From assembly GCF_021531055.1 (NCBI RefSeq), contig NZ_JADYTL010000002.1:248001-312000 (forward strand): 64,000 nucleotides of DNA, written 5' to 3'. The translations under genes and the position numbers were made by a program. Shown one piece after another: positions 31,325-46,781 of the stretch; the first letter of the stretch is position 1, and each line of letters begins with the position of its first letter. Source of the stretch: Collinsella tanakaei (lineage in GTDB: Bacteria; Actinomycetota; Coriobacteriia; Coriobacteriales; Coriobacteriaceae). The notes beneath the pieces were generated by a model. It was not told the origin of the DNA. It was given only the letters and a program-made list of their open reading frames with translations, and did not search any database.

Positions 31325-31408
31325 CGGGCACGCCAGCCACCGGACGCCACCGATCGCAATCGGCTTTCGGCCGCCTGCAACCCGCAAGCGCAAACCACCC
31401 GCACGGCC

Positions 31409-32242
31409 CTACGCCGTAAACGGCCACTCCCCTGCCGCCAGGGCCTCGATCGCCGCCGCGACGGCGTCGTCCTCGCAGCGGCCGATATGCCAACGCGCCC
31501 GCTCGGCGGCATCCTGCGAGGCGTTTTCCACCGCAACGGCATGCCCCGCGACCTCGAACATCGTCACATCGTTGCCCGCGTCGCCGAACACCACGACCTC
31601 GTCGGCGGTCACCCCGAGGTGCTTGCAGAGCACGCGCAAGGCGCTGCCCTTGTTCCAACCCGTCGGCATGATGTTGGAGAACCCCGCCATGGGCACGTCG
31701 AAATCCAGGCCGTCGATCGCGTCGTTCAGCTGCTCGACGAACGCCTCGGTGCCGGCGCGGTCCTCGTCGACGAAGACGTTCGCCTTGAGCACCGGCGTAT
31801 CGGGTAGCGTGTCGAGAGGCACGCAGGCGCGGGCATACGGCTCGGAAACGCGCGCCAAGATCTCGCGCTCGCCCGCCACGAGCCGCGGCGTCACGCCCTC
31901 GAACACGAGCAGGCCCGCACCCGGCGCCTCGCGGACGAACTCGAGCGTGTCGCGCAGGGCGTCCGCCGGCAGCAGCTCCTCGCGGATCTTCTCGCCGGCG
32001 CAGTAGACCTCAAGGCCGTTCGTGGCGATCGCCGTGGCACAGCACGCCTCGTCGCCGCGGAAGAACGGCGCGATCTGCACGCGCCCGCGCCCGCTCGCGG
32101 GCCCCACGACCATCCCCGCATCGAGCGCCGCGTGGAACGCCGCCACCGTGCGCTCGGACACCGAGGAAGCACCTTTGGGCATGACGGTACCGTCGATGTC
32201 GGTCATGATGAGCTTGATGCGGGACGCGGATGGGGCGGGCAT
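31409..32242 (-). CDS. Cof-type HAD superfamily phosphatase
   Basis: Haloacid dehalogenase family IIB hydrolase, normally acting on sugar phosphates or other small phosphorylated metabolites. Motif I is MTDIDGTVM near residues 13-21, the C2 cap lies in the middle, and motif III/IV is the KGSALRVL lysine followed by VVFGDAGNDVTMFE. 277 residues, typical. Stands alone. Substrate cannot be predicted. Confidence 0.88.
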   Translation of the reverse strand: MPAPSASRIKLIMTDIDGTVMPKGASSVSERTVAAFHAALDAGMVVGPASGRGRVQIAPFFRGDEACCATAIATNGLEVYCAGEKIREELLPADALRDTLEFVREAPGAGLLVFEGVTPRLVAGEREILARVSEPYARACVPLDTLPDTPVLKANVFVDEDRAGTEAFVEQLNDAIDGLDFDVPMAGFSNIMPTGWNKGSALRVLCKHLGVTADEVVVFGDAGNDVTMFEVAGHAVAVENASQDAAERARWHIGRCEDDAVAAAIEALAAGEWPFTA

Positions 32243-32374
32243 GGTGCGGCTTCCTTTCGGATGGCAACTATGAGGCTATGTGTCGTTGCATCACATTGTA
32301 GTCGTGCGCACGGTAGCATATACGGACAATCAGGTGGCCGCCGATTCGCGCCCTGCGCTCAGTCGCTTCCGCGC

Positions 32375-33553
32375 TCAATCACTCATCTGTTCGCGATACC
32401 ACTCATCGCGCCTGCCGTAGATCCTCGCGATCACGCCGCAACGCGTGGTCTTGCCGCCCACGATGCCGAAACGACGCCGATACGAGGCGAGCTCTTTCGA
32501 GGATAGGCCGATCCCGTCCGCCTCGCTATTGAACAGCGGCTCGGATACAAGGCGCCGAAGCGAAGCCGATCCGGACGCGTCGGCAAGTCGAGCGAGTTCC
32601 TGAGCACGCAGGCCCACCACCACGGCATATTCGATCAGCTCGGCCGCCGAAACCCCGGCATCGCCGATGCGCTCACCGGAATCGGCAGCTGCCCGTAGGC
32701 GCGTCGCAAGCGTCTCGAGCCGCTCGACCACCAAAACACCCGCCGGCGTGAGGGCACGGGTGCGGATTAAGCGTTGGGACAGGGCGAGCAGCACCGACGA
32801 GGCGATGAAGACGACAATGGTCACGGGCGACGGCACGGCGCTCGAGAACCAGATAGCGCCGACCAAGCCCATGAGCACGAACGCCACCGAAAAGCGGTTA
32901 TGGCGCTCGCTAGCATGACCGTCGTCCGGATCGATTAATCCGGCTTTGGCGCATGACGACTCCGCCAATCCGGCAAACCGGTAGATCTGGTCTCCCACAA
33001 CCTCGGTGGTCCACACGCTCTCGTCCATCACCTCGCGCAGATAAACACGTCGAGATCCCTCGGGAAAAATGAGATCCGTCGCCGCGCGCCCCAACTCGTC
33101 GGCGCAGTCGGGGTCGCCGCGTAGCACGAACTCCATAAGGCCGTCTTCAAGCGATGCGTGCCGGATCTCCATCACGCCAGCGCGCAACAGGCGGAGCACC
33201 GTCGCCACGAACACGCGGACCACGCCCTGATCGTTCACGACCCACGCGCACAGATCGGCCTCGAATCCGTTCGGAACAAGCTTGTGCCACGGTGCATCCA
33301 CCGACACGGCGCGGTGAGACCCTGCCGCGGCGCGGTCGAGCGCCTCCTCGGCATGCGCGCGACGGTACATGCCCCATGCGACGATCCCAACGACGCCGAA
33401 ATAGATAGCCGCTACGACAAGGGAGAAAACGACCGTCGACACCGTGTCGGCGACCTCATAGGACATGAGCTCACCGCGCACCAGCGCCTCCGCCAACGCC
33501 TCGCGCAGATACTCCGGTAGATAGAACAAATCGAGCAACGACGGGGAATCCAT
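32375..33553 (-). CDS. Membrane protein with repeated helices, DUF2207-like C-terminal part
   Basis: 392 residues. One N-terminal helix (about 42-63), a ~150-residue cytoplasmic domain (HKLVPNGFEADLCAWVVND and following), then two helices (about 225-262) and a soluble C-terminal tail with RIYGRRDEWY. The order resembles the C-terminal half of DUF2207 membrane proteins without their extracellular domain; this is a weak inference. No neighbours suggest a role. Confidence 0.6.
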   Translation of the reverse strand: MDSPSLLDLFYLPEYLREALAEALVRGELMSYEVADTVSTVVFSLVVAAIYFGVVGIVAWGMYRRAHAEEALDRAAAGSHRAVSVDAPWHKLVPNGFEADLCAWVVNDQGVVRVFVATVLRLLRAGVMEIRHASLEDGLMEFVLRGDPDCADELGRAATDLIFPEGSRRVYLREVMDESVWTTEVVGDQIYRFAGLAESSCAKAGLIDPDDGHASERHNRFSVAFVLMGLVGAIWFSSAVPSPVTIVVFIASSVLLALSQRLIRTRALTPAGVLVVERLETLATRLRAAADSGERIGDAGVSAAELIEYAVVVGLRAQELARLADASGSASLRRLVSEPLFNSEADGIGLSSKELASYRRRFGIVGGKTTRCGVIARIYGRRDEWYREQMSD

Positions 33554-33722
33554 GGGCTTCCAATCCTACACGCGCCGCGCGGCAACGACGGCCACACGGC
33601 GCGAGGTGCAAAAGGGTAAAACCAGCGTAGCGTGCGAAAACCACGGAACGTGTAAGGGGCGGGTAAGTACTGAGGCAGCTGCGCGACAAGCGGCACTGCG
33701 GCGTTCTCCCGGCAGTCTTCAG

Positions 33723-33764
33723 AAAAACGCCCCACAGGGCTCGGCAAACGAGCACCTGCGGGGC
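33723..33764 (-). terminator. Intrinsic terminator after the HTH/antitoxin-like gene
   Basis: On the minus strand an interrupted GC-rich stem (GCCCC, CAGG and CTCG paired with their complements, loop about 6 nt) is followed by CGTTTTTC. It lies ~140 bp beyond the stop of the gene at 33903. The rest of the 349-bp gap shows no gene. Confidence 0.7.
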
Positions 33765-33902
33765 ATTGGATGCCATGGCGTGCCCGCCCTTTAGGACGGA
33801 CACGATCGAACGCGCGATGGGTGCGCGGCAGGGCGCGTTATGCTCAACGAGCGGGTGAACATCGACAGGCTCCAAGCGGCCGCATCGCAAGCGCTCTTAC
33901 GC

Positions 33903-34589
33903 CTATGCGACGGCAACGACCGGCTCGAGCAGATCCTCCACGCGGCAGCGCAGCACGCGCGCGAGGCGCTCCATCGACGCCGCCTGGGCACGATTGATGT
34001 CCTTGTTACGCTGCTCGTACATCTGGATCGACCTTAGCGACACGCTGGAGAGCTCCGCCAGCTCGCGCTGCGTATAGCCACACGCACAGCGAAGCCGCGC
34101 GAGGTTCGTCGGGACCCGGCGATCGGCCATGCGCTCGGCGAACAGCCGCGCCATGCGCTCCTCGGACGCCTCGTGCCACGGATGGTACAGCCCGACCAGC
34201 ACGTCGAACGGCAACACGTCGAACAATTGCGTGAATGTCAACGCAAACCGCCACTGGATATAGGCGGCGACCCACCCTGCCCAGTACTCAGGCGTCCGAC
34301 CCGTACGCACCGCAGGTTCGGGTGCGGCACGCCCGTCATCATATCCGAGCTCGAGGCTCATATCCCAAAACAACTCGATACCTGAGCGCCCAGATACCAC
34401 CCACGGCGCGCCCGTCTCAAATTGGCGCGCAAGGGAGCTGGCGGCGAACAGCGCGGCAACCTCGCGTCCCTCGGCGCCGTAATCGTTGATCGCGTACTCG
34501 AAGAAGCATCCCAGGCATGCCATGGCATCCTCGAGGTAGAGCACGTCATAAGCACGGACGGGCGCGTGCTCAGAAGAGCCGCGGGTCAT
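33903..34589 (-). CDS. Putative antitoxin with C-terminal XRE-type HTH
   Basis: About 228 residues. The N-terminal ~165 residues are an alpha-helical domain of the sort found beside DUF3990 genes (YWAGWVAAYIQWRFALTFTQ is a visible block). The C-terminal ~65 residues form a Cro/C1-type HTH: LRCACGYTQRELAELSSVS then RSIQMYEQRNKDINRAQA. The ATG at 34589, after GGAGGT, overlaps the upstream gene by 20 bp, so the two are co-translated. Probable autoregulator acting at the palindrome upstream of the toxin-like gene. Function inferred from layout. Confidence 0.7.
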   Translation of the reverse strand: MTRGSSEHAPVRAYDVLYLEDAMACLGCFFEYAINDYGAEGREVAALFAASSLARQFETGAPWVVSGRSGIELFWDMSLELGYDDGRAAPEPAVRTGRTPEYWAGWVAAYIQWRFALTFTQLFDVLPFDVLVGLYHPWHEASEERMARLFAERMADRRVPTNLARLRCACGYTQRELAELSSVSLRSIQMYEQRNKDINRAQAASMERLARVLRCRVEDLLEPVVAVA

Positions 34590-35244
34590 GAGCGTCCACC
34601 TCCCCGAGCAAGAGGTCGCGAACATATATGCCATCACGGTCGAACAGTGCCGTAAGGGCCTGATACCGTCGCCGCGCCTGCATGTCGCGCGAGGCGCGAC
34701 GCGGGCCGTACACCTCGTAGGGTGCCACTTCGAACCCCGCGAATCGAATTCGATCGAATGCCTTAGCGCTCACGAGCACAACCTGTTCCCCAAGATTCCC
34801 CAAGCGCAGAGCTTCGGAAAGCTGCCCAACCGAAATCGTGTTGTTGAGAAATGCCCGAGCGAACGCGAAATACGAATCGTCCGCGCTGTAACCGCGAATC
34901 ACATCGAACCCCGACGTGTCGAGCAAAAAGATCTCGAGTAGACAGCCTCGGGCCTCGCGGGCAATCGCGTTGGAAAGATCGACACGCCGGTTGACCAACA
35001 GCAACGCGAGCCACGCGAGAACCGAGACACCCGGGGAAGACAGATCGAGCACAGACAAGGCATCCAGCGAGAAGTCATACCGATTCGCAAAACCGTCCGC
35101 ATCGCTGGGACAGGCCCATTCCTTAGCAAGATCCACATCTTCGGTGCAGTAAAACCCCGGCCCGTAGTCGTTGAACGGGCGACACAGCTCAAGGCGAGGA
35201 GTTCGTACGATATGAGGCGATCCGTGCCACAACAGCATACGCAC
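34570..35244 (-). CDS. DUF3990 family, ADP-ribosyltransferase-like putative toxin
   Basis: 224 residues. The N-terminus has LLWHGSPH (4-11) followed by DYGPGFYCTED (about 26-36) and AKEWA, the DUF3990 signature that resembles the NAD-binding His and Tyr elements of ADP-ribosyltransferase folds. The rest contains LEIFLLDTSGFDVIRGYSAD and a C-terminal helical part. First gene of an operon with an overlapping HTH gene and a 16-bp operator-like palindrome 17 bp upstream, a toxin-antitoxin layout. ADP-ribosyltransferase activity is a family-level suspicion, not shown here. Confidence 0.75.
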   Translation of the reverse strand: MRMLLWHGSPHIVRTPRLELCRPFNDYGPGFYCTEDVDLAKEWACPSDADGFANRYDFSLDALSVLDLSSPGVSVLAWLALLLVNRRVDLSNAIAREARGCLLEIFLLDTSGFDVIRGYSADDSYFAFARAFLNNTISVGQLSEALRLGNLGEQVVLVSAKAFDRIRFAGFEVAPYEVYGPRRASRDMQARRRYQALTALFDRDGIYVRDLLLGEVDAHDPRLF

Positions 35245-35257
35245 CTCCTAGAACTTA

Positions 35258-35287
35258 GAGTATCACTATAGTGATAGTATCACAGAG
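35258..35287 (-). promoter_or_regulatory. Operator palindrome of the DUF3990/HTH pair
   Basis: TATCACTATAGTGATA (35261-35276) is a perfect 16-bp palindrome. A third half-site gives GTGATACT twice on the minus strand. It overlaps the expected core promoter just upstream of the toxin-like gene, typical of autoregulated toxin-antitoxin operons. Confidence 0.75.
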
Positions 35288-35417
35288 TTCGATGCGGCGG
35301 GCGGTCATTTTACCGACAGCCCAACGACGGCGGATTGCATCGGGCAACACATGAATGGCGGGCTGCTTGCATGCGCTACAATGCCGGCATCGAACGAAAC
35401 GTCTTGAGGAGCGCACC

Positions 35418-35816
35418 ATGAGCGACGGGGCCATGATTCTATTGATCTTCGGGCTGATCGCGCTGCTCGGAGGCGGCACGACCGCCATCGTGCTGCTGGT
35501 TTCCAAGCGCGTCCGCGCGCACAAGGAGCGCACCTATACCGGCCAGACGGTGGGAACCATCGTCCGCGTGCGTCCCGGGAGCGTGGACCGCCCGACCACC
35601 GTGTACGTGCGCTACGAGGTCGACGGCGCGACGTACGAGCATCACGAGACCGTCAAGCTGACCAGCGAGGCGATCAAGCTCGGCCCCATCCCCATCGGTC
35701 AGCGCAAGCACGGCAAGATCCCCTCGCGCGTGGGCTGCACCGTACCCGTGGCGTATCTGCCCGAGGATCCGTCGAAGGCGATCTTGGTGGGGAACAGCGG
35801 GTTGATGAATGTGTAG
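35418..35816 (+). CDS. Small membrane-anchored protein, DUF3592-like
   Basis: About 132 residues: one N-terminal helix (MILLIFGLIALLGGGTTAIV) and a small beta-rich domain with GTIVRVRPGSVDRPTTVYVR and GCTVPVAYLPEDPSKAI. The latter resembles DUF3592 domains. The ATG at 35418 follows GAGGAG. Function unknown. Confidence 0.65.
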   Translation: MSDGAMILLIFGLIALLGGGTTAIVLLVSKRVRAHKERTYTGQTVGTIVRVRPGSVDRPTTVYVRYEVDGATYEHHETVKLTSEAIKLGPIPIGQRKHGKIPSRVGCTVPVAYLPEDPSKAILVGNSGLMNV

Positions 35817-35984
35817 GGTGAGCGTGCAAGCGGGCGCCTGCTGCAGCTTTGGCTGACATATCGGTCAGCTGCCCTGCCGCGTCCTGCAGGACGGATGACG
35901 GCGGGAGCGCCCCTTACGCCCCACCCCCGCCGCCTGCGCGATAATGGGATTCCGGACACGCTGCGAGCGACAGGGAGGCGGCCT

Positions 35985-36944
35985 ATGCTGTACACGCCCG
36001 CAACCAAGCGCGCGCTGCGCTATTGCCTGGCTTGCCACGAGGGACAGCTCGACAAGACGGGCCTACCCTACGCCTTGCACCCCATCCATCTGGCGGAGCA
36101 GATGTACCGCGAGGACGAAACGTGCGCCGCGCTGCTGCACGACGTCATGGAGGACTGCGGCAAAACGCCCGACGACCTGCAGGACATCGGGATGAGCGAG
36201 CGCGTCGTGGAGGCGCTGACCCTACTCACGCACGACCCGGCACTCCCCTACCTGGACTACGTGCGGCGCCTGCGGGACAACCCCGTGGCGCGCGCCGTGA
36301 AGATCGCCGATTTGCGGCACAACTCCCAGCTTGCGCGCCTAGACGAAGTGCGCCCGCGCGACGTGGAGCGGCTGCGCAAGTACATGGAAGCGCGCGTGGT
36401 TCTTGGCGATATGGCTTACGAGCTCGTAACGCCGGCGGGATCCGTACGGGTGCTGGTGAACGGCAAGCCGTATCCGTTCGTTCTGGTTGACGAGACGTGC
36501 GAGGAGTTCACGTGTTGCCCTTCGTATGGCAAGGATTCTGGCACGGACGGCGTGCGCGTCGTCGGCGCGCCAGACGGAGCGTATCGAATGGAGATCGAGA
36601 CGCTGCCGCTTGCCGTGGACGACGTCATCGAGGTCGCGCATGAATTCGGCACGGATATCGTCGACTACGGAAGTGACGAGTGGGTGGACTACGCGGTTTA
36701 TGCGACGTGCGGGCATGTCATCGGCGTGGGATGCTATGTGGACGAGAAGGGCGGCGATCGGGCTCCGGGAAGCCGTTCCTTTGCCGAGGATGGCCGCGAG
36801 CGGTACGTCATCGCGCGCGACCCGGTGTCCCATCGGTTTTGCGAGCGCGAGCACGTCATTCCCATCAGGGTGGCGTGGAGGCGAGGTACGGACGCCGTGG
36901 CGGTGGAGGTCGTCGGATGGGCTGCTGGCTGGGGTGGGTGGTAG
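35985..36944 (+). CDS. HD-domain phosphohydrolase-like protein
   Basis: 319 residues. The first ~130 residues form a RelA/SpoT-like HD domain: YALHPIHLAEQM supplies His residues, ALLHDVMEDCG the His-Asp pair, and VKIADLRHNS the distal Asp. No synthetase domain follows; the C-terminal ~170 residues are unrecognised. The ATG at 35985 follows GGGAGG. It could hydrolyse (p)ppGpp or another nucleotide (inference). The 393 bp after it hold no convincing gene. Confidence 0.75.
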   Translation: MLYTPATKRALRYCLACHEGQLDKTGLPYALHPIHLAEQMYREDETCAALLHDVMEDCGKTPDDLQDIGMSERVVEALTLLTHDPALPYLDYVRRLRDNPVARAVKIADLRHNSQLARLDEVRPRDVERLRKYMEARVVLGDMAYELVTPAGSVRVLVNGKPYPFVLVDETCEEFTCCPSYGKDSGTDGVRVVGAPDGAYRMEIETLPLAVDDVIEVAHEFGTDIVDYGSDEWVDYAVYATCGHVIGVGCYVDEKGGDRAPGSRSFAEDGRERYVIARDPVSHRFCEREHVIPIRVAWRRGTDAVAVEVVGWAAGWGGW

Positions 36945-37337
36945 CGGACAACGAATCCTCATCCAGAGCCGTATCTCATAGCGCTATCCGTGATCGCTGC
37001 GAGACTCGCTTTGAATCTGGGGGCGCTCGTAAGCCGTCGAGCGATTTGTCCGACACCTCAATTATTGTTCCGTCTGCGCTCATAAGGTCCTCCTGCATAT
37101 CCGGGTAGATGCAGCCCATGGATACAGGGCGCCTGCTCGTGTGGACACTGTTTTGAGAACTCGGCAAACACGACACCCCTTATTGTGAAGTGGAGTGAGC
37201 GTCGCACGCCTTAAATACAACCAAAGCCGCTCCCGGCTACCCTTCAGCTGATCCGCCACTGCTTGCGGAGCAAACCAGAAGGCCTTTACTTTACAATCGT
37301 AAGAGCGCTAAAGCCTTTGAATACCCTGAGGAATGAT

Positions 37338-38228
37338 ATGAAACTCGAACGAGATCTCTCTCACGACCTGCCCGAAATAGAAACAACAGGCGCCTCGACC
37401 ATGCAGCAGCATGACGAGTCGCTTTCGCACGGTGAAATCAGGTCCGGCAAGCTTGCCTCTGATGTCGATGAATCGGAAATCAAACGTCTAAACGCAAAGC
37501 GCGAGGCCCTTGAAGCCGAATTCAAGCTCGAACAACAAAAGTTGGAAAGCATTAAAAGGCAGAATAAAATACAGAGGCGCAACGAGCGTAGGGATTTTCT
37601 TGCAGCAAACCTCACTCCAAAGCGAGCAATCACGATACTTGGTGCAATCGTCGTCGTTGTTCTCGTTGGCGCGTTCGCCGTATCCCAACTTTTCAAAGAA
37701 GAAACGAAACCCGTGACGATCACCTCATCACAGCTCGAGGAGATTGTCACGATCAGCAAGCTCTCGACCGCGGAATACGTCTACAACGGCATAGCTGAAG
37801 TAAAGAACGAAGACGGAGAGGTCACCCAACGAATCTACTACGGTTCGACGGTTCGAGCCGGCGTCGATATGAGCAAGATCAAGTTCGATATCGACGATGA
37901 GGCAAAGCTCGTCTACCCCATCCTCCCGGAAATCACGCTCGACGATCCGAGCGTGGACGAATCGTCCTTTGAATACATGCCCACGAATCCCGATATGAAA
38001 CTCAATGACATCATCTCGGTGTGCAAGAAGGACGCACGCACGGAAATCGAGAAGAAGGGACAGATTTACGATACCGCCGAAGAGGGGCTGCGCACGGCTG
38101 TAGAAGCGCTCACGTTACCTGTACTCGAAAACGCGGACTACCGCATTTCTTGGGATGAGCCTCCGGCAGACAACGATCGGCAACCCGACAAAGCAGATGG
38201 TCAAGAGGTGACTACCAATGAGCAGTAA
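37338..38228 (+). CDS. DUF4230 membrane protein with coiled coil
   Basis: About 296 residues. A charged N-terminus and a predicted coiled coil (about 60-105: KRLNAKREALEAEFKLEQQK) are followed by one membrane helix (about 122-142) and an outer DUF4230 domain with VTISKLSTAEYVYNGIAEV. Base composition is visibly less GC-rich than flanking genes. Overlaps the next gene by 11 bp. The ATG at 37338 follows GAGG. Function of the family is unknown. Confidence 0.75.
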   Translation: MKLERDLSHDLPEIETTGASTMQQHDESLSHGEIRSGKLASDVDESEIKRLNAKREALEAEFKLEQQKLESIKRQNKIQRRNERRDFLAANLTPKRAITILGAIVVVVLVGAFAVSQLFKEETKPVTITSSQLEEIVTISKLSTAEYVYNGIAEVKNEDGEVTQRIYYGSTVRAGVDMSKIKFDIDDEAKLVYPILPEITLDDPSVDESSFEYMPTNPDMKLNDIISVCKKDARTEIEKKGQIYDTAEEGLRTAVEALTLPVLENADYRISWDEPPADNDRQPDKADGQEVTTNEQ

Positions 38229-38823
38229 ACACTTGCGCAAAAACCTCGTTCTCGTGTTCAGCGCGATTCTGGTTGCTGCAACCCTCCTCTGCGGCTGCCA
38301 AAACACAGAGGAACCCGAGGCCGAGAATCCCGATCTGTCCTCGAACGCCGGATATATATGCGATCTTGCCACGCTCGAGGTCTACTATCACAACGTTGCT
38401 CGGTACAATCAGGAAAGCGATTTTCCGCTCAAACTTGGCAACATCGGTTATAAGCGCATGTGGTTTGAATACAGTGGTATCGTCGAAATTGGTGTCACCG
38501 CTAGCAAAGTCACCATTTCTGAACCCGATGAGAACGGCGTCGTAACGATATATGTTCCTCAGGCAGAAATCCTAAATGTCAACTTGGACGAGAACTCAAT
38601 CACCGATCCCGTCGTAGAAACCGGATGGTTCACGACCTTATCCACCGAAGAGAAAACCGAAGCTTTGAGTAATGCCCAAACCGGCATGGAAGAGGAAGCG
38701 GACAAAGACGATACGTTGAAATATCAGGCGCGCAAGCGGGCGAAGGATCTTCTGGAGTCCTATGTGCAGAACACGGGAGACCTTATCGGCAAGCGGTATA
38801 CGGTTGAGTGGATAGAAGGATAG
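38218..38823 (+). CDS. DUF4230-like lipoprotein
   Basis: 201 residues. Signal peptide with lipobox LLCGC (Cys near residue 26), then a domain like that of the preceding protein (LATLEVYYHNVARYN, AEILNVNLDE). Overlaps the upstream gene, so the pair is co-expressed and probably forms a surface complex. Lower GC than neighbours. Confidence 0.75.
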   Translation: MSSKHLRKNLVLVFSAILVAATLLCGCQNTEEPEAENPDLSSNAGYICDLATLEVYYHNVARYNQESDFPLKLGNIGYKRMWFEYSGIVEIGVTASKVTISEPDENGVVTIYVPQAEILNVNLDENSITDPVVETGWFTTLSTEEKTEALSNAQTGMEEEADKDDTLKYQARKRAKDLLESYVQNTGDLIGKRYTVEWIEG

Positions 38824-38874
38824 CATCCATAGTCAACTAACCTCTCTCCTCTCCACCATGAAAGGGTAAGTCGT

Positions 38875-40980
38875 ATGAAGGCGGTTGAAGCTCAGTTTCT
38901 CTCATTGCTTGGGTCAGATCTGACGCAATTCGTTATTCCGGTATACCAGCGCGTCTATTCCTGGGACGAACGTGAGTGCCAAGACCTTTGGAATGACGTC
39001 ATGCGTTCCGGAAAAAACGGCAAGCAGCACTTCATTGGCTCGTTCTTATACACGCCGCAGAGTGCCGCAACCGCAACGTCCCTGAAAAAGAAATTGCTCA
39101 TCGATGGCCAGCAGCGCATGACTACGTTGTCCCTCCTTCTCGCCGCATTCTTCGAGTGGCTAGAAGAGGACGTCACTCGAGGCGGTTTTCTCGAAGACAT
39201 CAAGGTAACCGCCCTGCGCAAACGTTATCTCTACAACGAGGACGACTACATCGGCGATTCGCGCTATCGCCTCGTTCTCTCTCAGGATGACCGTCCAACG
39301 CTTTTCGCCATCGTGGGAAAGACTCCCCTTCCTGACAATCCGTCCCAGCGTATCGTATCCAGCTACGAATTCTTCAGGCGCAAAATCCAAGCCAAGCACT
39401 TCGATGCCAAATCGCTTTGGAGCGGCGTAAAAAACCTTCTTATCATCGACACCGAATTGAGCGCAGAAACGGATAATGCACAGCTCATCTTTGAGTCGAT
39501 GAACTCTAAAGGAAAGCCTCTCACTCCAATCGACCTCATCCGAAATTACATTCTCATGCGGCTCGATATGAACACCCAAACCACCCTTTACGAAAGCTAC
39601 TGGCGTCCCATAGAGCTCATGTTTGGCCAGCAGCGGGAAGATGAGTTCAATGCGTTTATCTGGTACTGGCTTTGGCTCAAGATTCCCAAGAGAGCACCCA
39701 AGGAAAACGAGGCATATCAGGAGTTCAAGGGATACTGCGAGGATAACAAACTCGAAGATGACCCCAAAGCGCTCCTCGAAGAGTTGCGCCAGTATGCAAC
39801 GCGCTATGTTCGCATGTTCATGGATAAGGAGTCGGATTCCGATCTTGCGCCAGTCTTTAGACGAATCGCGAGCTTGTGGGTCAAGCCCGTGCGGCCGCTC
39901 ATGCTCTCGCTCTACGCGCTTTATGAATCTAATCGCCTGAGCAAGTCAGATTTCATTGAACTGTGTACATATCTTGAGTCGTTCCTCTTCAGACGTGCCG
40001 TGATTGGTCGTTTTACTACCGGCCTGAACAACTTCTTCGCGGGAATGTATCAAGACCTCGAAAAGGCGGAGAATCCCAAAGAATATGTTCTCGCCATGCT
40101 CCTTTCTCATACCGAAAACATGACGGCGTACTTCCCCACCGACGAAGTGTTTGCCGAAAGCCTCAAAACACGTGACCTGTATCATCGATTCTCGAAGGGA
40201 CGGTACTGCCTCGAGCGCTATGAGTCGTTCTTTAATCCAAAAGAGCCCGTCCCGAGCAATTTGCAGATTGAACACGTTATGCCGCAAAACATCGAGACCT
40301 CTGCAGCTTGGCAGATAATGATCGGTAACGATTGGGCAGAAACTCACGAGGAGCTATGCAATACACTTGGCAATCTCACGCTCACCGGATATAACCAGGA
40401 ATACTCAAACCGCCCCTTCGAAGAAAAGCTCAATCTTCCCAACGAAGGATTCAAATCGAGCAGCCTTCATTTGAATAAGTTCGTCGCGCAGCAAACAACC
40501 TGGAATAGGGAGACAATCGAGAAGCGAGGTGAGCTGCTCGCCAAAGAAGCCCTGCACATTTGGCCATATCCCGAGCTCGACGAATCAATCGTTGATCTCC
40601 ATCGCCCCAAGAGTAAGCAGGAAAAGGGATCAAACTGGACACTCGAAGATGATCATCCGCTCCTCGCGAAAGGTGGCATTTGCGCCGGTTTCTTTGAGGA
40701 GCTTGTAGACGCAATAAGCAATGAATTCCCGGACTGGGAGATGTACGTCACAAAATACTATGTTGGATTCAAAGATAGGAAAAAGCTTCACCTATGTGTC
40801 AAGGGGCATTCGACCAAGGGAGGCTGGCTCGCGCTCGGGTTATCGCGACAAGCAGATGAATACCTAGATCCTCATGCACTTTGCCAAGACAAATCGATTG
40901 GCCCCAATATGCCTACGCGTGTCGACCTCGTGGATGATGGGCAGATTCCAGCGCTGGTGGAGCTGCTGAAACAAGAATAG
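38875..40980 (+). CDS. GmrSD-like DUF262/DUF1524 defence nuclease with DUF5655 tail
   Basis: 701 residues. N-terminal DUF262 has IPVYQRVYSWDE and the nucleotide-binding LLIDGQQRMTTL (about 80-91); C-terminal DUF1524 has the HNH-type IEHVMPQN (about 463) and LGNLTLTGYNQ. The last ~110 residues match the DUF5655 pattern, with GFKDRKKLHLCVKGH. Single-chain GmrSD enzymes are type IV restriction systems that cut modified phage DNA; that role is inferred from family. It has no modification partner and sits in a low-GC patch with the DUF4230 pair and a phage-like remnant. The start at 38875 follows AAAGGG. Confidence 0.88.
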   Translation: MKAVEAQFLSLLGSDLTQFVIPVYQRVYSWDERECQDLWNDVMRSGKNGKQHFIGSFLYTPQSAATATSLKKKLLIDGQQRMTTLSLLLAAFFEWLEEDVTRGGFLEDIKVTALRKRYLYNEDDYIGDSRYRLVLSQDDRPTLFAIVGKTPLPDNPSQRIVSSYEFFRRKIQAKHFDAKSLWSGVKNLLIIDTELSAETDNAQLIFESMNSKGKPLTPIDLIRNYILMRLDMNTQTTLYESYWRPIELMFGQQREDEFNAFIWYWLWLKIPKRAPKENEAYQEFKGYCEDNKLEDDPKALLEELRQYATRYVRMFMDKESDSDLAPVFRRIASLWVKPVRPLMLSLYALYESNRLSKSDFIELCTYLESFLFRRAVIGRFTTGLNNFFAGMYQDLEKAENPKEYVLAMLLSHTENMTAYFPTDEVFAESLKTRDLYHRFSKGRYCLERYESFFNPKEPVPSNLQIEHVMPQNIETSAAWQIMIGNDWAETHEELCNTLGNLTLTGYNQEYSNRPFEEKLNLPNEGFKSSSLHLNKFVAQQTTWNRETIEKRGELLAKEALHIWPYPELDESIVDLHRPKSKQEKGSNWTLEDDHPLLAKGGICAGFFEELVDAISNEFPDWEMYVTKYYVGFKDRKKLHLCVKGHSTKGGWLALGLSRQADEYLDPHALCQDKSIGPNMPTRVDLVDDGQIPALVELLKQE

Positions 40981-41039
40981 GGATCAGGCGGGCAGCACGC
41001 GTTCATCCCCGGCACCGCAACCCTCACCGAGGGGCGTAA

Positions 41040-41225
41040 CGGCTTATTCGATGCGAGCATCCCTGCCTCCTCCACGTCCATTACGTCGGCTAGCGGCTTG
41101 ATGTCACGGTCGTAGTTGAACGTCTTGATCTCGAAGCCGTAAGCGACCGACCCCGTCTTGTAGCCGACTTTGCGCGTGTAGCCATCGAGGCCCGTGACCC
41201 ATACAGGGCAAACGCCAGCCTCGTC
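41040..41225 (-). pseudogene. Capsid-like gene remnant
   Basis: A minus-strand open stretch reads VTGLDGYTRKVGYKTGSVAY, then GFEIKTFNYDRD and IKPLADVMDVEEAG, which resembles the N-terminal region of phage major capsid proteins (the pattern of a Tyr-Asp-Arg then a Val-Met/Asp-Glu-Glu block). It has no start or ribosome-binding site, is preceded by two stops at 41226-41231 and runs into unrelated sequence. The rest of the 40981-41409 gap shows no gene. Confidence 0.45.
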
Positions 41226-41409
41226 TCATCATATGTCCAGCTGGCACGACCCGCCATGGCGCCCATCTCCTCGGCTCAAAGCGGCGCGATTGTTGCGCCG
41301 CTATCTCATTGCTCCCAGGATAGCGCATGGGGCTAATCCATTCCGAAATACGATGAGGCGAATCGGGGTACGAGGCGATCTGAACTACCAATTCCCGTCC
41401 AAAACCGCC

Positions 41410-42954
41410 CTACTCCTCATCGAGCGCTGCCATCGCATCCCTAACGGTGCGGTAGGGCCCGAACAGATTCTCACCCGTCGCGACATCGTCCATCGCGGCA
41501 AGCGTCTCGGAGCTGAACCCATGAGGACTCGAAGGCCCAACCGGACGATCATGCTCCCCGTCATCCACCAGCAGCACGTCATCCCGTTCCGCTGCCAGCT
41601 CGCGCAACGCGTCCGTAAACCCACTCACGCTGAAGAGCGCAAAAACGTCTTGCCTCTCGCCTTTCTTCCATGGCACGCGTGCCACCTTGTCTTCAAGATC
41701 ACGCAGCACGTTGATACCAACCGGATCCTTCCAGAACTTGCACTCACCCCACACGGCACGTCCCTCGCCCACACTGAGGCCCGCAACGTCGATCTCGGTA
41801 TCACCCGACCACCAACGCCCGATGCGCTCCGGAATAAAACCCAGCATGCCCGAGTCGGCCATATCCCATAACCGGTCTCGACAGACGTCCTCGTATACAA
41901 ATGCTACGTGACCGTCGACAAAATGCTCACGGATACGCTTTTCGACCGCAGCCGTACGACCCGTCTCCAGATAGCTCAGATTGGGCAGCAGGAACCTGAA
42001 CCAAAACTGGAGGAAGTTGTCCTTTATGAAATAGAGGCTCTTCTTGCTCTTATCGGGGTCGCTCTCCGTAACCGGCACCTGACGCTCCAGGACATCCAAC
42101 TCGATGAGCGTCTTGAGATACTTATTCAGGCTCGTCTGCTTCATGCCGAACGCACGCGATATCTCGTTCGGCCGATGCGCGCCGCCCGCAATCGCGCGGA
42201 TAAGCGCGAAATACGTACCCACGTCGGGTACCTCGCGCTGGAGCAGGAAATTCGGCTCATCGTAGAGAAACCCGTTGCGATCGAGTATGTTCGCGGAAAT
42301 CGCAGCGAAGATATCGTCCTGGTCTTCGAACAGCTCGATGTACTTGGGAACACCACCGGTCACGGCATAGCGCTCCACCAGCTCGCGCGTCGAACGCCCC
42401 GGCAGGAACTCGCGGTAATGCGAAAATGGAATCTGCCCCATCCTGATTTGCGCCGTCCTGCGTCCATACAGGGGGCTTTCCTCAGACAGCACCTGATCTT
42501 TCATGAGCGAGATGAGCGACCCGCACAAGACGAGCATGACATTTGCGTCTTTGAGCATCGTGTCCCAGATGCGCTGAAAAACCGAGGGATACGCCGGGTT
42601 CGCCTTGCCGAGGTATTGGAATTCGTCGATGACGATCACCGCGCGCTCATGCGTCGAATCGCACGATTGCGCGAGTTCGCGGAAGATGTCCTCCCAGCGC
42701 GTGATGCGCGCGGAGCGCAGCAGGTCGCTCTGCAGGAAGTCCGCCGCGACCGCTTGGAAGCTTTCGAGGTTCTGGAGCTCGGGCTCCTCTGTCGCGAGGT
42801 AATACAACGCGCGTTTGTCCCGAATGAAACGCGAGATGAGCTCGGTCTTGCCCACCCGACGTCTGCCGTAGACAACAACGAAGGAGGATTCCTCTCGCGC
42901 ATATTCGCGCTCAAGGGCCTGCAACTCCCGCTCTCGATCAACAAAGGTGCGCAC
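41410..42954 (-). CDS. ATPase_2/DUF234 family AAA+ protein
   Basis: About 514 residues. STAND/AAA-like ATPase_2 domain: Walker A VYGRRRVGKTE near residues 28-38 and Walker B VIVIDEFQYLG near 112-122. A winged-helix segment near 260-320 (RPNEISRAFGMKQTSLNKYL) leads into the DUF234 domain with a restriction-nuclease-like core (VWGECKFWKDP). A frame opens at 42978, but the GTG at 42954, 6-7 bp after GGGAGG, is better placed. Function of the family is unclear; defence or a stress role has been suggested. It is monocistronic, with a palindrome upstream. Confidence 0.82.
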   Translation of the reverse strand: MRTFVDRERELQALEREYAREESSFVVVYGRRRVGKTELISRFIRDKRALYYLATEEPELQNLESFQAVAADFLQSDLLRSARITRWEDIFRELAQSCDSTHERAVIVIDEFQYLGKANPAYPSVFQRIWDTMLKDANVMLVLCGSLISLMKDQVLSEESPLYGRRTAQIRMGQIPFSHYREFLPGRSTRELVERYAVTGGVPKYIELFEDQDDIFAAISANILDRNGFLYDEPNFLLQREVPDVGTYFALIRAIAGGAHRPNEISRAFGMKQTSLNKYLKTLIELDVLERQVPVTESDPDKSKKSLYFIKDNFLQFWFRFLLPNLSYLETGRTAAVEKRIREHFVDGHVAFVYEDVCRDRLWDMADSGMLGFIPERIGRWWSGDTEIDVAGLSVGEGRAVWGECKFWKDPVGINVLRDLEDKVARVPWKKGERQDVFALFSVSGFTDALRELAAERDDVLLVDDGEHDRPVGPSSPHGFSSETLAAMDDVATGENLFGPYRTVRDAMAALDEE

Positions 42955-42986
42955 TGCAACCTCCCTTGCGGTAGGCATTTTGCAAA

Positions 42987-43023
42987 GATTATTCTGTACA
43001 GAATTATTCTATTTGGAATAATC
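42987..43023 (-). promoter_or_regulatory. Operator-like palindromes upstream of the ATPase gene
   Basis: ATTCTGTACAGAAT (42991-43004) is a perfect 14-bp palindrome, and GATTATTC (42987-42994) is mirrored by GAATAATC (43016-43023). The AT-rich block overlaps the expected promoter of the ATPase gene. Confidence 0.55.
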
Positions 43024-43097
43024 TTCAGCTTCAAGTGTCTATCGTCGGAGTATGATGCATCGGGCAGCGAGCGGGGAGGCACTCCCTACGACCAAAG

Positions 43098-43128
43098 GGG
43101 TTGAACGGAACACGTCCCCGATCAACCC
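43098..43128 (+). repeat. Family A single unit
   Basis: A 31-bp unit GGGTTGAACGGAACACGTCC...TCAACCC with 7-bp terminal inverted repeats, just before a family B array. Confidence 0.75.
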
Positions 43129-43132
43129 AGTG

Positions 43133-43290
43133 GAACTTTCTACTGACAGCTGGAACTCTGTACTGACACGGAAAACTCCCAGCTGACACAACTCGGCAGA
43201 AACACCTCGTTTGTGTCAGCTGGGAGTTTTAACTGTCAATAGTGAGTCTCGGCTGTCAATAGTGAGCCCCGGCTGTCAGCACTGAGCCGA
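43133..43290. repeat. Family B 20-bp-period inverted array, array 1 (3+4 units)
   Basis: Three left units ending in CTGACA(G/C) at 43149, 43169 and 43189 face four right units starting (C/G)TGTCA at 43213, 43233, 43253 and 43273. The period is exactly 20 bp. The 23-nt centre (43190-43212) is the inverted form of the centre found in arrays 2 and 3. The core motif is CTGTCAGTACGGAGTCC with variations. Confidence 0.85.
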
Positions 43291-43309
43291 AGCGCCCCGG
43301 CAGCCCAAA

Positions 43310-43342
43310 CGGGTTGAAACGAACACGTCCCCAACCAACCCG
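43310..43342 (+). repeat. Family A single unit at the end of the AGCS gene
   Basis: CGGGTTG and CAACCCG ends enclose AAACGAACACGTCCCC. It abuts the stop codon of the symporter gene and could act as its terminator. Confidence 0.75.
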
Positions 43343-44776
43343 TTACTTGTCGCGGAACGCCAACATCTCGCTGTAGTCCGTGTCGCGCGGGCGACGACGG
43401 TCGGGGTCGCGGAAGAAGTCCGCAGCAAGTCGGCGGATCACGGGCGAGAGGGCGATCAGCGCGATGAGGTTCGGGATCGCCATGAGGCCGTTGAAGCAGT
43501 CTGCGAACTCCCACACCACGTCGAGATTCGCCACGCAGCCCGCGAACACCATGGCAACATAGGCGACCTGGTAGAGGCGCACGGCCACGCGACCCGCCTT
43601 AGGCACGCGGCGGAACAGGTACTCGACGCACTTTTCGCCGTAGTAGTACCAGGCGATGAGCGTCGCGAACGCGAACAGCATGAGGCCCACCGTCACGATG
43701 TACTCGCCGAAGGGAATGCTCTGCCCAAAGGCCTCCGAGCTCATGGCACCCTCGGACATCATGGGGTCGGCGCACCACAGCCCCGAGGTGATGATCACGA
43801 GGCCCGTGACCGTGCACATGACGATGCTGTCGAAGAACACCTCGAACGTACCCCACAGGCCCTGACGCGCAGGGTGGTCGGTGTCGGCGGAGGCGTGCGC
43901 GATGGGCGCCGAACCCATGCCCGCCTCGTGCGTGAACACGCCGCGCGACATGCCCACGCGGCACGCGTACATGACCGTGGCGCCCAAAAAGCCGCCCGTG
44001 GCCGCCGTGCCCGTGAAGGCGTCGCGGAAGATATGGGCGATCGCCGCGGGAATCTCGGCGGCATTGACGACGAGCACCGCCGCGGCGCCGACGAGGTAGA
44101 AGATGGCGGCAAACGGCACGAGCTTCTCGGTGATCTGCGCGATGCGGGTGATGCCGCCGATGAGCACCAGGCCCGCGAGCAGCGCCACCACGGCGCCGAT
44201 GACGGGCAGCGGCACGCCGAAGGTCGCGTTCACGCTGCCGGCGAGCGAGTTGGCCTGCACGCTCGCGCCGATACCGAACGACGCGAGGAAGCCGAAGATG
44301 GCGAACAGCACCGCAAGCCAGGTGACGCCCAGGCCGCGCGAGATGTAGTACATGGGACCGCCCACGATTTCGCCCCGCTCGTTACGCGTGCGGTAGGCGA
44401 CCGACAGCGTGACCTCGCAGAACTTGATGACCATGCCTGCCAGCGCGGAGAGCCACAGCCAAAAGATCGCGCCTGGGCCGCCCGTGGCCACCGCGAGCGC
44501 CACGCCCACGATGTTGCCGGTGCCGAGCGTCGCGGCAAGCGCGGTGCACACCGCTTGGAACGGCGAGATGGTGCCCTCCCCTGCCTCAGATGGGTCGGCG
44601 CGCTGGAAGAGCGTCTTGGTGGTGTAGCGCATCACCACGTTGAAGCGCGTGAACACGACGCCCTTGGTGATGAAGAGCAAAAACATGCCGGTGCCGAGCA
44701 TCAGCACGACCATGGGAACGCCCCACAGCACGTTGGTGTTCAATGCAGCGATAGCGGACATGAAGTAATCGAACAT
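43343..44776 (-). CDS. AGCS family sodium:alanine/glycine symporter
   Basis: 477 residues with about ten to eleven membrane helices. Family blocks: FQAVCTALAATLGTGNIVGV at about 74-93, GGPMYYISRGLG, MSRGVFTHEAGMGSAPIAHA and the WYYYGEKCVEYLF segment. Imports alanine, glycine or related small amino acids with sodium. The position between the two catabolic arms does not prove a link, but glycine or alanine-like products could be substrates. Family C direct repeats lie upstream. Confidence 0.92.
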   Translation of the reverse strand: MFDYFMSAIAALNTNVLWGVPMVVLMLGTGMFLLFITKGVVFTRFNVVMRYTTKTLFQRADPSEAGEGTISPFQAVCTALAATLGTGNIVGVALAVATGGPGAIFWLWLSALAGMVIKFCEVTLSVAYRTRNERGEIVGGPMYYISRGLGVTWLAVLFAIFGFLASFGIGASVQANSLAGSVNATFGVPLPVIGAVVALLAGLVLIGGITRIAQITEKLVPFAAIFYLVGAAAVLVVNAAEIPAAIAHIFRDAFTGTAATGGFLGATVMYACRVGMSRGVFTHEAGMGSAPIAHASADTDHPARQGLWGTFEVFFDSIVMCTVTGLVIITSGLWCADPMMSEGAMSSEAFGQSIPFGEYIVTVGLMLFAFATLIAWYYYGEKCVEYLFRRVPKAGRVAVRLYQVAYVAMVFAGCVANLDVVWEFADCFNGLMAIPNLIALIALSPVIRRLAADFFRDPDRRRPRDTDYSEMLAFRDK

Positions 44777-44886
44777 ACGGTATCCCCCCGACGGTGGCGC
44801 ACGTCGGCGCCGCTGTTTGGGGGCTTACTTTACACCCCCTGTGTTTCCAACACATGTCGGGAGCAGCTTGGAAATCTGGCTGCAAA

Positions 44887-44974
44887 TGTCCCAAAAGGGG
44901 CCAGGGGAAAATTGGGACAGGGCGACCAAAGACGCGGGCCATGTCCCAAAAGGGGCCAGGAGAAAAATGGGACA
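44887..44974 (+). repeat. Family C direct pair (two 33-bp units, 55-bp spacing)
   Basis: Units 44887-44919 and 44942-44974 read TGTCCCAAAAGGGGCCAGG and end TGGGACA. Here they are in direct orientation, unlike the inverted pair at 25475-25571. They lie in the divergent gap between the symporter and SDR genes. Confidence 0.85.
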
Positions 44975-45070
44975 TCCCTCCCCGCGAAGGCGCCCCTCGC
45001 GTGCGACCGCGCACCGTCCGTCCCCTCCCCGCGCGCGGTCACCGGCAAGCGCCTCACGCGGTCTCAATTT

Positions 45071-45088
45071 AGTCATACTATTATGACT
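45071..45088 (+). promoter_or_regulatory. Operator-like inverted repeat upstream of the SDR gene
   Basis: AGTCATA, 4 bp, TATGACT is a perfect inverted repeat 31 bp before the SDR start codon. Size and AT-rich dyad suit a MarR-type repressor, and a MarR gene follows in the same operon. Confidence 0.6.
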
Positions 45089-45118
45089 ATCTATCAGCAC
45101 ACCGAAAGGAGCTCACCT

Positions 45119-45919
45119 ATGGGACGTCTTGCAGGAAAGGTCGCCATCGTCACCGGCTCTACCAGCGGCATCGGCATCGGCATCGCGCGTCTGTTCGTGC
45201 GCGAGGGCGCCACGGTCGTGGTCTGCGGCCGTCGCAAGGAGCGCGGCGAGCAGGTCGTGGCCGAGATCACGGCCGACGGCGGCACCGCGAGCTACCACTA
45301 CCTGGACCTCACGGACCTCGATACCGTCAAGACCCTCATCGACGACACCGCGGAAACCTACGGCCACCTCGACATCCTGGTCAACAACGCCGCCAACGTC
45401 GGCTTGGCCGACGGCTCGGTCGAGGAGCTCACCCTCGAGATGTGGGACGCCATCTTCGCGAGCGACCTGCGCGGCACGTTCTACGCCATCAAGTGCGCCC
45501 TGCCGCACCTCAAGGCGGCCGGCGGCGGCTCCATCGTCAACATCGGCTCCATGGCGTCGTGCGGCGGCGACCTGGGCGCCACCGCGTACGCGTGCGCCAA
45601 GGCCGGCGTCGACATGCTCACCTCGAGCGTGGCCCTGCAGTACGGCAAGGACAACATCCGCTGCAACTGCGTGCGCCCCGGCCTGATCGTCACCCCGCAG
45701 AACGAGGACGTCGTGCCCCAGATGCTGCGTGACATCTTCCTGTCGAACATCGAGGTCAACCGCTACGGCAACCCCGAGGACATCGGACACGCCTGCGTGT
45801 ACCTCGCCTCCGACGAGGCCGAGTTCGTGACCGGCCAGGTCTTCAACGTCGACGGCGGCATGAATTCGCACGCCCCCACCGTCGCCCAGTTCCGCGCCGC
45901 GGGCTCCCGCACGTGGTAG
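45119..45919 (+). CDS. Short-chain dehydrogenase/reductase
   Basis: 266 residues, classical SDR: cofactor loop VTGSTSGIGIGIAR (11-24), NNAAN near 89, and the catalytic triad Ser144, Tyr157, Lys161 (NIGS, YACAK). The G-R-R-K after strand 2 (CGRRKER) favours NADP(H). The ATG at 45119 follows AAAGGAG. It is followed after ~40 bp by a MarR-type regulator, and an inverted repeat lies upstream. It is not the known Collinsella 7-beta-HSDH type by its N-terminus. Substrate unknown. Confidence 0.88.
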   Translation: MGRLAGKVAIVTGSTSGIGIGIARLFVREGATVVVCGRRKERGEQVVAEITADGGTASYHYLDLTDLDTVKTLIDDTAETYGHLDILVNNAANVGLADGSVEELTLEMWDAIFASDLRGTFYAIKCALPHLKAAGGGSIVNIGSMASCGGDLGATAYACAKAGVDMLTSSVALQYGKDNIRCNCVRPGLIVTPQNEDVVPQMLRDIFLSNIEVNRYGNPEDIGHACVYLASDEAEFVTGQVFNVDGGMNSHAPTVAQFRAAGSRTW

Positions 45920-45960
45920 TAGCATAGGAACACCCGACCTATCGCGAACCCGGAGAGCCC

Positions 45961-46413
45961 ATGTCCCAACAGCGCGCCGACCACGAACACGACTACGCCC
46001 GACTTGCCTACCGGCTGCAGGTCCTCTTTGACGACCTCGTGATATCGGGCTATCGGGACTCGTTTCGCGGCGAGCTGGGGCGCACGCAGGCCGAGTTGCT
46101 CGCACGCCTCTGCGAGCACGGACCTGCGTGCGCCCAGGACCTGAGCCGGGCGCTCCACATCCCCAAACAGCACGTCTCACGCATCGTCGACGCCTTTGCG
46201 CGCGCCGGGATGGTGAGCATGACGCCTTCGACGACCGACCGTCGCTCCAAGGTCATCGACGTTACCGACGAGGGCCGCTCCCTCATCGACCGCCACGTGC
46301 AGGAGAGCGGCGAGCGCTACCTTACCCTCATCGAACGGCTCTCCGACGACGAGCGGACAGAACTCGCCGACGCCATGACCCGCCTGATCCGCCTGTTCGA
46401 AAAGCTCAGCTGA
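45961..46413 (+). CDS. MarR family transcriptional regulator
   Basis: 150 residues with the MarR winged helix: LGRTQAELLARLCEHGPA, HIPKQHVSRIVDAFARAGMV, then TTDRRSKVIDVTDEGRSLI. It is 41 bp downstream of the SDR gene and probably controls it through the dyad at 45071-45088. Ligand unknown. Confidence 0.88.
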   Translation: MSQQRADHEHDYARLAYRLQVLFDDLVISGYRDSFRGELGRTQAELLARLCEHGPACAQDLSRALHIPKQHVSRIVDAFARAGMVSMTPSTTDRRSKVIDVTDEGRSLIDRHVQESGERYLTLIERLSDDERTELADAMTRLIRLFEKLS

Positions 46414-46447
46414 CGGGCACCGCTGCGCCTCATGCCCAGCGGGACCC

Positions 46448-46479
46448 TGTCCAAAAGGAGCCAGGAGAAAACTGGGGCA
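46448..46479 (+). repeat. Family C degenerate unit
   Basis: A 32-bp unit TGTCCAAAAGGAGCCAGGAG ending TGGGGCA, a degraded member of family C, next to array 2 of family B. Confidence 0.65.
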
Positions 46480-46510
46480 TCGCCAACAGGCGGAGCTCCG
46501 TGCCGATACG

Positions 46511-46747: not shown

Positions 46748-46781
46748 GGCAAGCCGCCGAGCACCTATCCGCCCGCAAATC

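Follow-up and report, generated by a model that had tools for sequence, protein, structure and literature searches.

Phage satellites are exemplified by P4 and the phage-inducible chromosomal islands (PICI), and what determines the places where defence islands form is an open question. According to the accessible text of Rousset et al. 2022 (PMC9122126), the variable slot of P2 and P4 lies between gpA and the portal gene gpQ, spans ~1-5 kb and is without large systems such as type I restriction-modification (RM); for DUF1524, the domain that type IV enzymes such as Eco94GmrSD join to DUF262, the accessible text of PMC4437046 gives the motif rule (D/E/H)HxxP. Here we describe an island of low guanine-plus-cytosine (GC) content in Collinsella tanakaei that carries a single-chain GmrSD-type gene, two DUF4230 genes and a scrap of a phage capsid gene. 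The island lies in the window, the whole analysed stretch of 64,000 nucleotides (G000:C9:248,001-312,000; G, C and L numbers are our handles for genomes, contigs and loci), which is part of a 2.23-Mb draft genome. In our view it is probably a prophage-linked defence island that has eroded but retains a modification-dependent restriction enzyme, in an exchange site between an HD-domain gene and a symporter gene.

A preliminary description of the window had read the patch from about 36.9 to 41 kb as a worn-down transferred island that kept a defence gene. Comparison with the relative G041 by blastn moves the end of the patch from 41 to ~43.13 kb, taking in an ATPase gene. The GC profile bears the patch out: GC per 1-kb bin is 0.49-0.52 across 37-41 kb against a mean of 0.659 off the patch (standard deviation 0.034, minimum 0.578), and mean GC is 0.650 at 30,000-36,944, 0.515 at 36,945-41,225, 0.534 at 36,945-43,131 and 0.649 at 43,132-50,000. 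Codon use, measured as the distance B from 35 core genes of the window (mean 0.302, standard deviation 0.081, maximum 0.536), is likewise atypical for DUF4230a (0.58) and DUF4230b (0.63), both beyond the core maximum; the GmrSD gene (0.51) sits at the edge, just inside the core range, and the ATPase gene (0.388) is intermediate.

The site is variable between relatives. In G041 the flanks are retained at high identity and enclose an unrelated block of 15.2 kb, in which PADLOC names GajA and GajB (Gabija), a type III RM pair, an OLD-like gene and the candidate PDC-S11; homology to the window resumes within a palindromic repeat (DNA fold z -5.2) on the right. In G020 the HD gene is shorter (52% identity) and lies against the symporter, with next to nothing between. 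Shared flanks with different defence content mark a chromosomal hotspot, as judged from two informative relatives only, since a full-length symporter occurs in just six of the 43 genus genomes, counting this one, and three of them carry it in other surroundings; the HD/symporter site is rare, because 37/43 genomes are without a full symporter match. We looked for conservation of the region and its flanks in all relatives, together with normal codon use, and found neither; the variable site, the codon use and the visible wear uphold the reading of a worn-down island. Repeats of the G041 locus also match the window at 46.6-46.9 and 49.6-49.8 kb.

The gene that the island kept has intact domains and motifs. 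Its 701-amino-acid (aa) protein matches GmrSD_N (DUF262, PF03235) at 117 bits (cut-off 33.2) and GmrSD_C (DUF1524, PF07510) at 96 bits (cut-off 23), and contains DGQQR at residue 77, which we take to be the DUF262 motif, and EHVMP at residue 466, which has the (D/E/H)HxxP form in DUF1524. A third domain, DUF5655, had also been named; at 18.1 bits against a cut-off of 24 this label is insecure, and Pfam finds nothing else in the tail. The best PADLOC matches are Orf5 (8e-150) and HEC-06 (2.5e-62), and the solved relatives by sequence are the DUF262 protein 9jfl (E 4.5e-10) and SspE. Homologues are present in 14/43 genomes of the genus, six of them at 53-57% identity, and a second GmrSD gene of the same genome is 40% identical. 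From its sequence the 701-aa gene is probably a GmrSD-type, modification-dependent restriction enzyme that would cut modified phage DNA, and we infer that it restricts such DNA.

The island also contains a remnant of a phage. The preliminary description had noticed a fragment resembling a capsid N-terminus; its capsid origin stands (PHROG 422), but it covers residues 43-98 on the minus strand and is not the N-terminus. It is 68% identical over 56 residues (E 3e-18; 30-50 kb searched) to the 338-aa capsid of a complete prophage on contig C15 of the same genome and has no start codon on its 5' side. Abutting it, in another frame, are 22 codons that we assume to resemble the beginning of HNH-type restriction genes and that have no convincing homologue among the fetched loci. 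Over residues 9-475 the neighbouring ATPase shares 82% identity with a 467-aa gene of L026, where a DUF4230 pair lies 1.5 kb away, and its last 44 residues (479-522; 41,413-41,544), presumably a fused antitoxin tail, are 73% identical to the C-terminal end of a 94-aa protein that sits near the same kind of symporter (named by eye) in another genus (L221). The 56-residue capsid scrap and the ATPase with its 44-residue tail that matches a 94-aa protein are the wear visible in the island.

The family capsid is thus present in the window as a fragment only. We found no significant match to the family's integrase, terminase or portal at 30-50 kb, in keeping with the earlier remark that no integrase is visible (other integrase families were not searched for), and no tRNA in the window. 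Because the family's integrase, terminase and portal have no significant match at 30-50 kb, we file the window as an island with a prophage scrap and not as a prophage; together with the missing tRNA, this rules out the region as a live mobile element by itself.

To characterize the likely source we used the first 86 capsid residues as query, which match 20 phage records, with Eggerthella phage PMBT5 among the best (49%). Complete members of the family were recognized in G179 (L215 and L195), in G122 (L218 and L196) and on our own contig C15, where integrase to portal spans 73.9-85.1 kb, the capsid lies at 94.0 kb and the genes from scaffold to lysin are present. In G179 and G122 the genes are, in order, integrase, XRE, a gene that we take to be excisionase-like, primase, TerS, TerL, portal, a variable slot, scaffold, capsid, Dit, Tal, receptor-binding proteins, holins, GH25 lysin and a small minus-strand gene. 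Pfam confirms integrase, TerL and GH25, with the portal slightly below cut-off; gene calls in the phages are approximate, and we do not claim that complete phages lack tail genes. The capsid block as a reduced element without packaging genes was ruled out, as integrase, terminase and portal lie upstream in G179, G122 and this genome. The temperate family with its large, restriction-rich slot was seen in L228-L250, L193-L212, L215 and L218.

The capsid is carried by 23 IMG/VR contigs, in eight of which the portal is visible within the fetched flank; the portal-scaffold slot measures ~7-9 kb in seven of these and ~2 kb in the eighth. Several non-structural genes stand directly upstream of the scaffold in 22/23 (all except L249). 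Filtering by length and composition left 99 of 115 slot proteins, from 19/23 viral contigs (L229, L236 and L244 were left out for size and L249 had no slot proteins); in these Pfam found N6_Mtase (8), Eco57I (8), ResIII (8), C5 methylase (7), HSDR_N (5), McrBC (2) and Abi_2 (2), these families overlapping, with both type I and type III RM families included. The PADLOC models most often matched are methyltransferases (up to 8/99), and not all slot genes look defence-like by eye (e.g., L243 and L238). In 23/23 viral contigs the stretch 0.7-9 kb upstream of the capsid has a lower GC (average 0.582) than the part beginning with the scaffold (0.676), a feature of the family that would explain the low-GC patch in the window. 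In addition, the type III RM of the G041 block shares 81-85% DNA identity with copies upstream of the scaffold in L215, L229, L230, L193 and L194, and a copy within the same range lies in a locus with a truncated capsid (L153), so the chromosomal site and the phage slots draw on the same cargo.

We further surveyed 396 genomes, which we take to represent the class Coriobacteriia, and found the family capsid in 90. Truncated copies among the matches listed are strongly asymmetric: 39 keep the N-terminal part only, 2 the C-terminal part only and 14, the window among them, an internal part, four near-complete or interrupted copies having been set aside. The portal, examined as a control in the 41 genomes with 5' capsid pieces (hereafter stumps), shows no such bias (N-terminal only 10, C-terminal only 8, internal 6). 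Our set of 44 stumps omits most internal and all C-terminal pieces, G307 and G345 among them; many genomes being drafts, the stumps of G262:C6 and G339:C7 lie at contig ends and a few others within 1.5 kb of one. In the 43 stump loci read, the capsid match ends at or before residue 134 in 37, and in 34 homology to complete copies sets in 330-730 bases before the capsid, near the start of the scaffold. Six loci (L161, L164, L169, L172, L179 and L189) have further tail or lysis genes of the family in the ~12 kb that follow, and a right-end marker follows in L054 and L169. In 15/44 the same strand carries a portal, in many cases a broken one, 5-18 kb upstream.

The ends of the stumps are scattered from residue 59 to 273, which rules out a site-specific right junction, and L185 (G276:C54) has a capsid 3' piece directly after the stump and another ~1.6 kb further (661-1236 and 2827-2985). 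On the left, a sharp homology edge is seen in, for example, L153, L155 and L156 at a TTGTGAC motif and hairpin-like stretch ~600 bases before the capsid start, with differing sequence to its left in many of 21 loci compared. Allowing up to four mismatches, the motif is at that position in 12/43 stump loci and 9/21 complete loci; as a recombination site it is weakened, since it coincides with an apparent scaffold promoter and is absent from the window.

Defence genes recur around the stumps. Among 105 upstream proteins from 39 stump loci we found HSDR_N (5), ResIII (5) and AIPR (2), so that RM and Abi families recur, and GmrSD_N is the commonest family (8/104) among the 104 of 106 post-stump proteins scanned, which also include RAMA, Abi_2, ApeA, AbiEi and ordinary metabolic genes. 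SRAP is matched by 5/105 of the upstream genes; in several phages an SRAP gene also seems, by eye, to stand on the minus strand just before the scaffold, e.g., L230:8722-9336 (-). In L221 and in L178 (G208:C1), another genus, the same kind of symporter as in the window precedes a capsid stump by ~20 kb, with type I RM between (both named by eye).

PF03235 has 62 matches in the 41 stump genomes, 20 of them within 10 kb of one of the 44 stumps (0.51 expected) and 10 within 2 kb (0.11 expected), so that GmrSD_N is found within 10 kb at 19/44 stump loci and, leaving out the discovery loci (the window, C8 and G293:C20), at 16/41. A local hidden Markov model (HMM) found DUF262 genes at 15/43 stump loci, 0/21 complete-capsid loci and 2/23 viral contigs; it was built from eight seeds, six of them from stump loci including the window, and the PF03235 count is independent of it. 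In our own contig C8 the second GmrSD gene starts 73 bases past a scaffold and capsid residues 1-86, and one scaffold-stump-GmrSD arrangement recurs, with 73-88% DNA identity, in L054, L160, L163, L166 and L180. With the window scrap and the C8 stump, each of the two GmrSD_N genes found in this genome stands next to a capsid piece of a single phage family.

Several observations weigh against the prophage-linked reading of the island. The genomes of the PF03235 count were selected for having stumps, and the discovery cases make up three of the 19 positive loci. Stump loci are not independent, as five share one junction and seven another downstream block. The window's GmrSD gene is convergent with the scrap, unlike those in C8, L160, L163, L166 and L180, which follow the stump on the same strand. 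None of the regions fetched around the six closest GmrSD relatives of the genus (53-57%) contains a capsid piece, and two of the five with listed neighbours adjoin genes that by eye are of type I RM. Nor is GmrSD common as cargo of the slot, as the local HMM found no DUF262 gene near the 21 complete-capsid loci and only two near the 23 viral contigs. Finally, the route of the window scrap is argued by analogy, because only 56 capsid residues are left and no family scaffold, portal or integrase accompanies them.

A rival reading is a coincidence in a busy exchange site, in which a GmrSD gene and an unrelated prophage scrap met and the class-wide association reflects shared plastic regions. The HD/symporter site does take unrelated cargo in G041, genus GmrSD relatives do occur in regions without a capsid piece, and GmrSD is rare near complete capsids. 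We nevertheless think coincidence rather unlikely: a capsid piece of one and the same family lies within 100 bases of each GmrSD_N gene found in this genome, five genomes have one stump-GmrSD arrangement in common, and general plasticity does not predict a 39:2 bias toward the capsid 5' end that is absent for the portal.

The genome has a second prophage. Within 1-18 kb of contig C9 lie TerS, TerL and portal together with a slot that reaches the contig start and that by eye holds type I RM genes; the slot end is 97-99% identical to L234, a viral contig, as far as the final slot gene and apparently, by eye, the opening codons of the scaffold. Contig C8 opens with foreign bases, after which the scaffold continues as in L234. 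The two contigs would thus form one element, split in the assembly by an insertion in the scaffold gene, with left arm, RM slot, interrupted scaffold, capsid residues 1-86, GmrSD and right-end marker. This genome therefore seems to hold a complete phage (C15), a gutted phage (C9/C8) and a scrap (the window).

The C9/C8 element, with its packaging genes and a complete relative at hand in C15, invites the alternative that stump prophages with a left arm are satellites, in which the block from capsid to lysis was exchanged for a restriction gene and virions come from the complete relative. Left-arm genes share a contig with a stump in G087:C13 and G197:C7 as well, the only loci where a TerL that covers most of the protein, or is cut by a contig edge, lies near a stump on the same contig, to which C9/C8 would add a third; each of these two TerL genes has one internal stop, however, left arms beside stumps are mostly broken pieces, our own scaffold gene is interrupted, and no integrase of this element was recognized in the 19 kb read. 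Satellites of this kind are, in our view, very improbable. Distinctly improbable, too, is a broader scheme in which restriction satellites arise by swapping the capsid-to-lysis block for GmrSD, with the scaffold and the capsid 5' end serving as a homology handle for cargo exchange, and in which C15, C9/C8 and the window represent all stages.

The stump might instead have been kept as a decoy whose product blocks head assembly of infecting relatives. In its favor, scaffold and stump frames are often open, and five genomes have the stump-GmrSD arrangement in common; yet the L180 stump has a frameshift and a stop, the L166 scaffold a frameshift and the L160 scaffold a large in-frame deletion, damage that argues against a protein function of the stump. 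In the five-genome group the GmrSD gene starts ~70-100 bases after the stump, and the window scrap lacks a start codon on its 5' side. We hold a decoy to be extremely improbable.

The eroded, prophage-linked island that we favor would, in the order of events that we infer, have formed as follows. The scrap belongs to the major capsid gene of the temperate family whose members have a variable, low-GC, restriction-rich portal-scaffold slot. Prophages of this family would repeatedly lose most DNA downstream of the first part of the capsid gene, leaving slot genes and GmrSD genes now joined to a capsid stump, and the window would be a late stage of such decay, its scrap having arrived, by analogy, along the same route as the other stumps. 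In the retained enzyme the DUF262 part is predicted to hydrolyse nucleotides as it recognizes incoming DNA that is modified, and the HNH-like DUF1524 part, with its EHxxP motif, to cut this DNA. Coordinates of the island and its surroundings are collected in Table 1.

Table 1. Features of the low-GC island and its flanks, in window positions
Feature	Position	Strand	Evidence
Left flank, HD-domain gene	35895..36944	+	87% protein identity in G041; HD_4 match slightly below cut-off
Variable insert (island)	36947..43131	.	G041 blastn homology ends at 36,947, restarts at 43,132
DUF4230a, 296 aa from ATG (321 aa from upstream TTG)	37338..38228	+	PF14014 57 bits
DUF4230b, 201-aa putative lipoprotein	38218..38823	+	PF14014 94 bits; lipobox-like LCGC by eye
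Single-chain GmrSD-type gene, 701 aa (DUF262 + DUF1524)	38875..40980	+	Pfam PF03235, PF07510 above cut-off
Scrap of a capsid gene (major head protein of PHROG 422 type, residues 43-98)	41055..41222	-	PHROG E 3.7e-8
22-codon start of another gene abutting the capsid scrap, other frame	41201..41266	-	Sequence
ATPase with DUF234, PADLOC candidate PDC-S27	41410..42978	-	Pfam/PADLOC
Palindromic repeat, 37-nt direct repeats at both ends	43092..43341	.	Contains right edge of shared homology
Right flank, Na:alanine symporter	43343..44776	-	Pfam PF01235

The two overlapping DUF4230 genes of the preliminary description are confirmed: both proteins exceed the PF14014 cut-off of 27, and the frames overlap by 11 bases. 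DUF4230a has a likely coiled coil and one membrane helix (by eye). For an AlphaFold2 model of DUF4230b (mean predicted local distance difference test, pLDDT, 82.8) the PDB yields no confident match, the best scores being E 3.6e-3 with Foldseek and Z 5.9 with VIA (root-mean-square deviation 2.6 over 66 residues); proteins that we call TULIP-like recur weakly in these searches. DUF4230 is present in 116/396 genomes of the class, with about two dozen tandem-pair loci (by eye); the pair is conserved in other genomes. As far as the accessible sources report, DUF4230 in Streptococcus mutans was hit by a transposon, and its clean deletion has no significant defect.

Because the pair and the GmrSD gene are adjacent and codirectional in the window, we considered that the three form one defence operon in which the envelope pair senses infection. 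A DUF262 gene is present in the fetched span of 4/26 tandem-pair loci (the window, L118, L108 and L117) and of 0/18 single DUF4230 loci, L118, from another genus, repeats the trio of the window with scaffold and capsid stump, DUF4230 pair and DUF262 gene in a row, and the pair of L028 stands beside type I RM genes (by-eye names). The types of DUF262 nevertheless differ between loci, several of the pair loci listed sit among ordinary genes, and no PADLOC model matches DUF4230 at E 0.01, so that a joint operon appears quite improbable. As the other 22 pair loci have no DUF262 neighbor in view, we treat the pair as a passenger, a separate set of envelope proteins.

Other observations concern the neighborhood of these genes. 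In several genomes (L104, L105 and L106) a helix-turn-helix (HTH) gene of 71 to 97 aa lies on the opposite strand within ~100 bases of DUF4230a, and at G016:C1:582769-585177 (L055/L072) the DUF4230 pair is split by a transposase-like gene of 413 aa (by eye), with a second copy nearby. In the window, overlapping HTH and DUF3990 genes at 33903-35244 (-) match the PADLOC candidate pair PDC-M42B/PDC-M42A, so possible defence genes also lie left of the island.

Neither capsid stumps beside defence genes nor a portal-scaffold slot in Coriobacteriia appear in the titles and abstract openings of the openly licensed PubMed Central (PMC) papers that our searches listed, and the accessible parts of PMC8778435 and PMC13060105 likewise describe neither such stumps nor such a slot. 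Beyond the preliminary description, the likely source family, the cargo pool shared by slot and site, and the association of capsid stumps with GmrSD are new. The window alone is ordinary; the pattern reached from it is not obvious. With the 5' capsid stump of one phage family as a sequence mark, defence genes and above all GmrSD can be located in many genera of a single class, and the family itself has a large restriction-rich slot; this makes it testable whether prophages decay in a way that retains their defence cargo and whether gutted relatives persist as satellites.

Several known systems come close. With Eco94GmrSD, in the accessible text of PMC4437046, the window's enzyme shares the single-chain DUF262-DUF1524 fusion and the (D/E/H)HxxP motif, here EHVMP, and it is ~100 aa longer than the 604-aa close homologue named there, with a weak DUF5655-like tail; the Orf5 and HEC-06 matches likewise end near residue 565 of the 701-aa protein, with the C-terminal ~130 residues outside. 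Unlike Eco94GmrSD, it stands beside a capsid scrap and a DUF4230 pair, and its substrate specificity is a prediction only. The P2 and P4 hotspots, as presented in the accessible text of PMC9122126, likewise place a variable anti-phage slot between conserved genes next to the portal; the slot of the Coriobacteriia family differs in lying between portal and scaffold, in being mostly ~7-9 kb long and in including type I and type III RM. Like satellites, as far as the accessible descriptions go, our own C9/C8 element has kept packaging genes while most capsid, tail and lysis genes are gone, and it carries defence genes alongside a coresident complete relative; unlike them, left arms elsewhere are mostly broken, and the likeness of C9/C8 is one of gene architecture.

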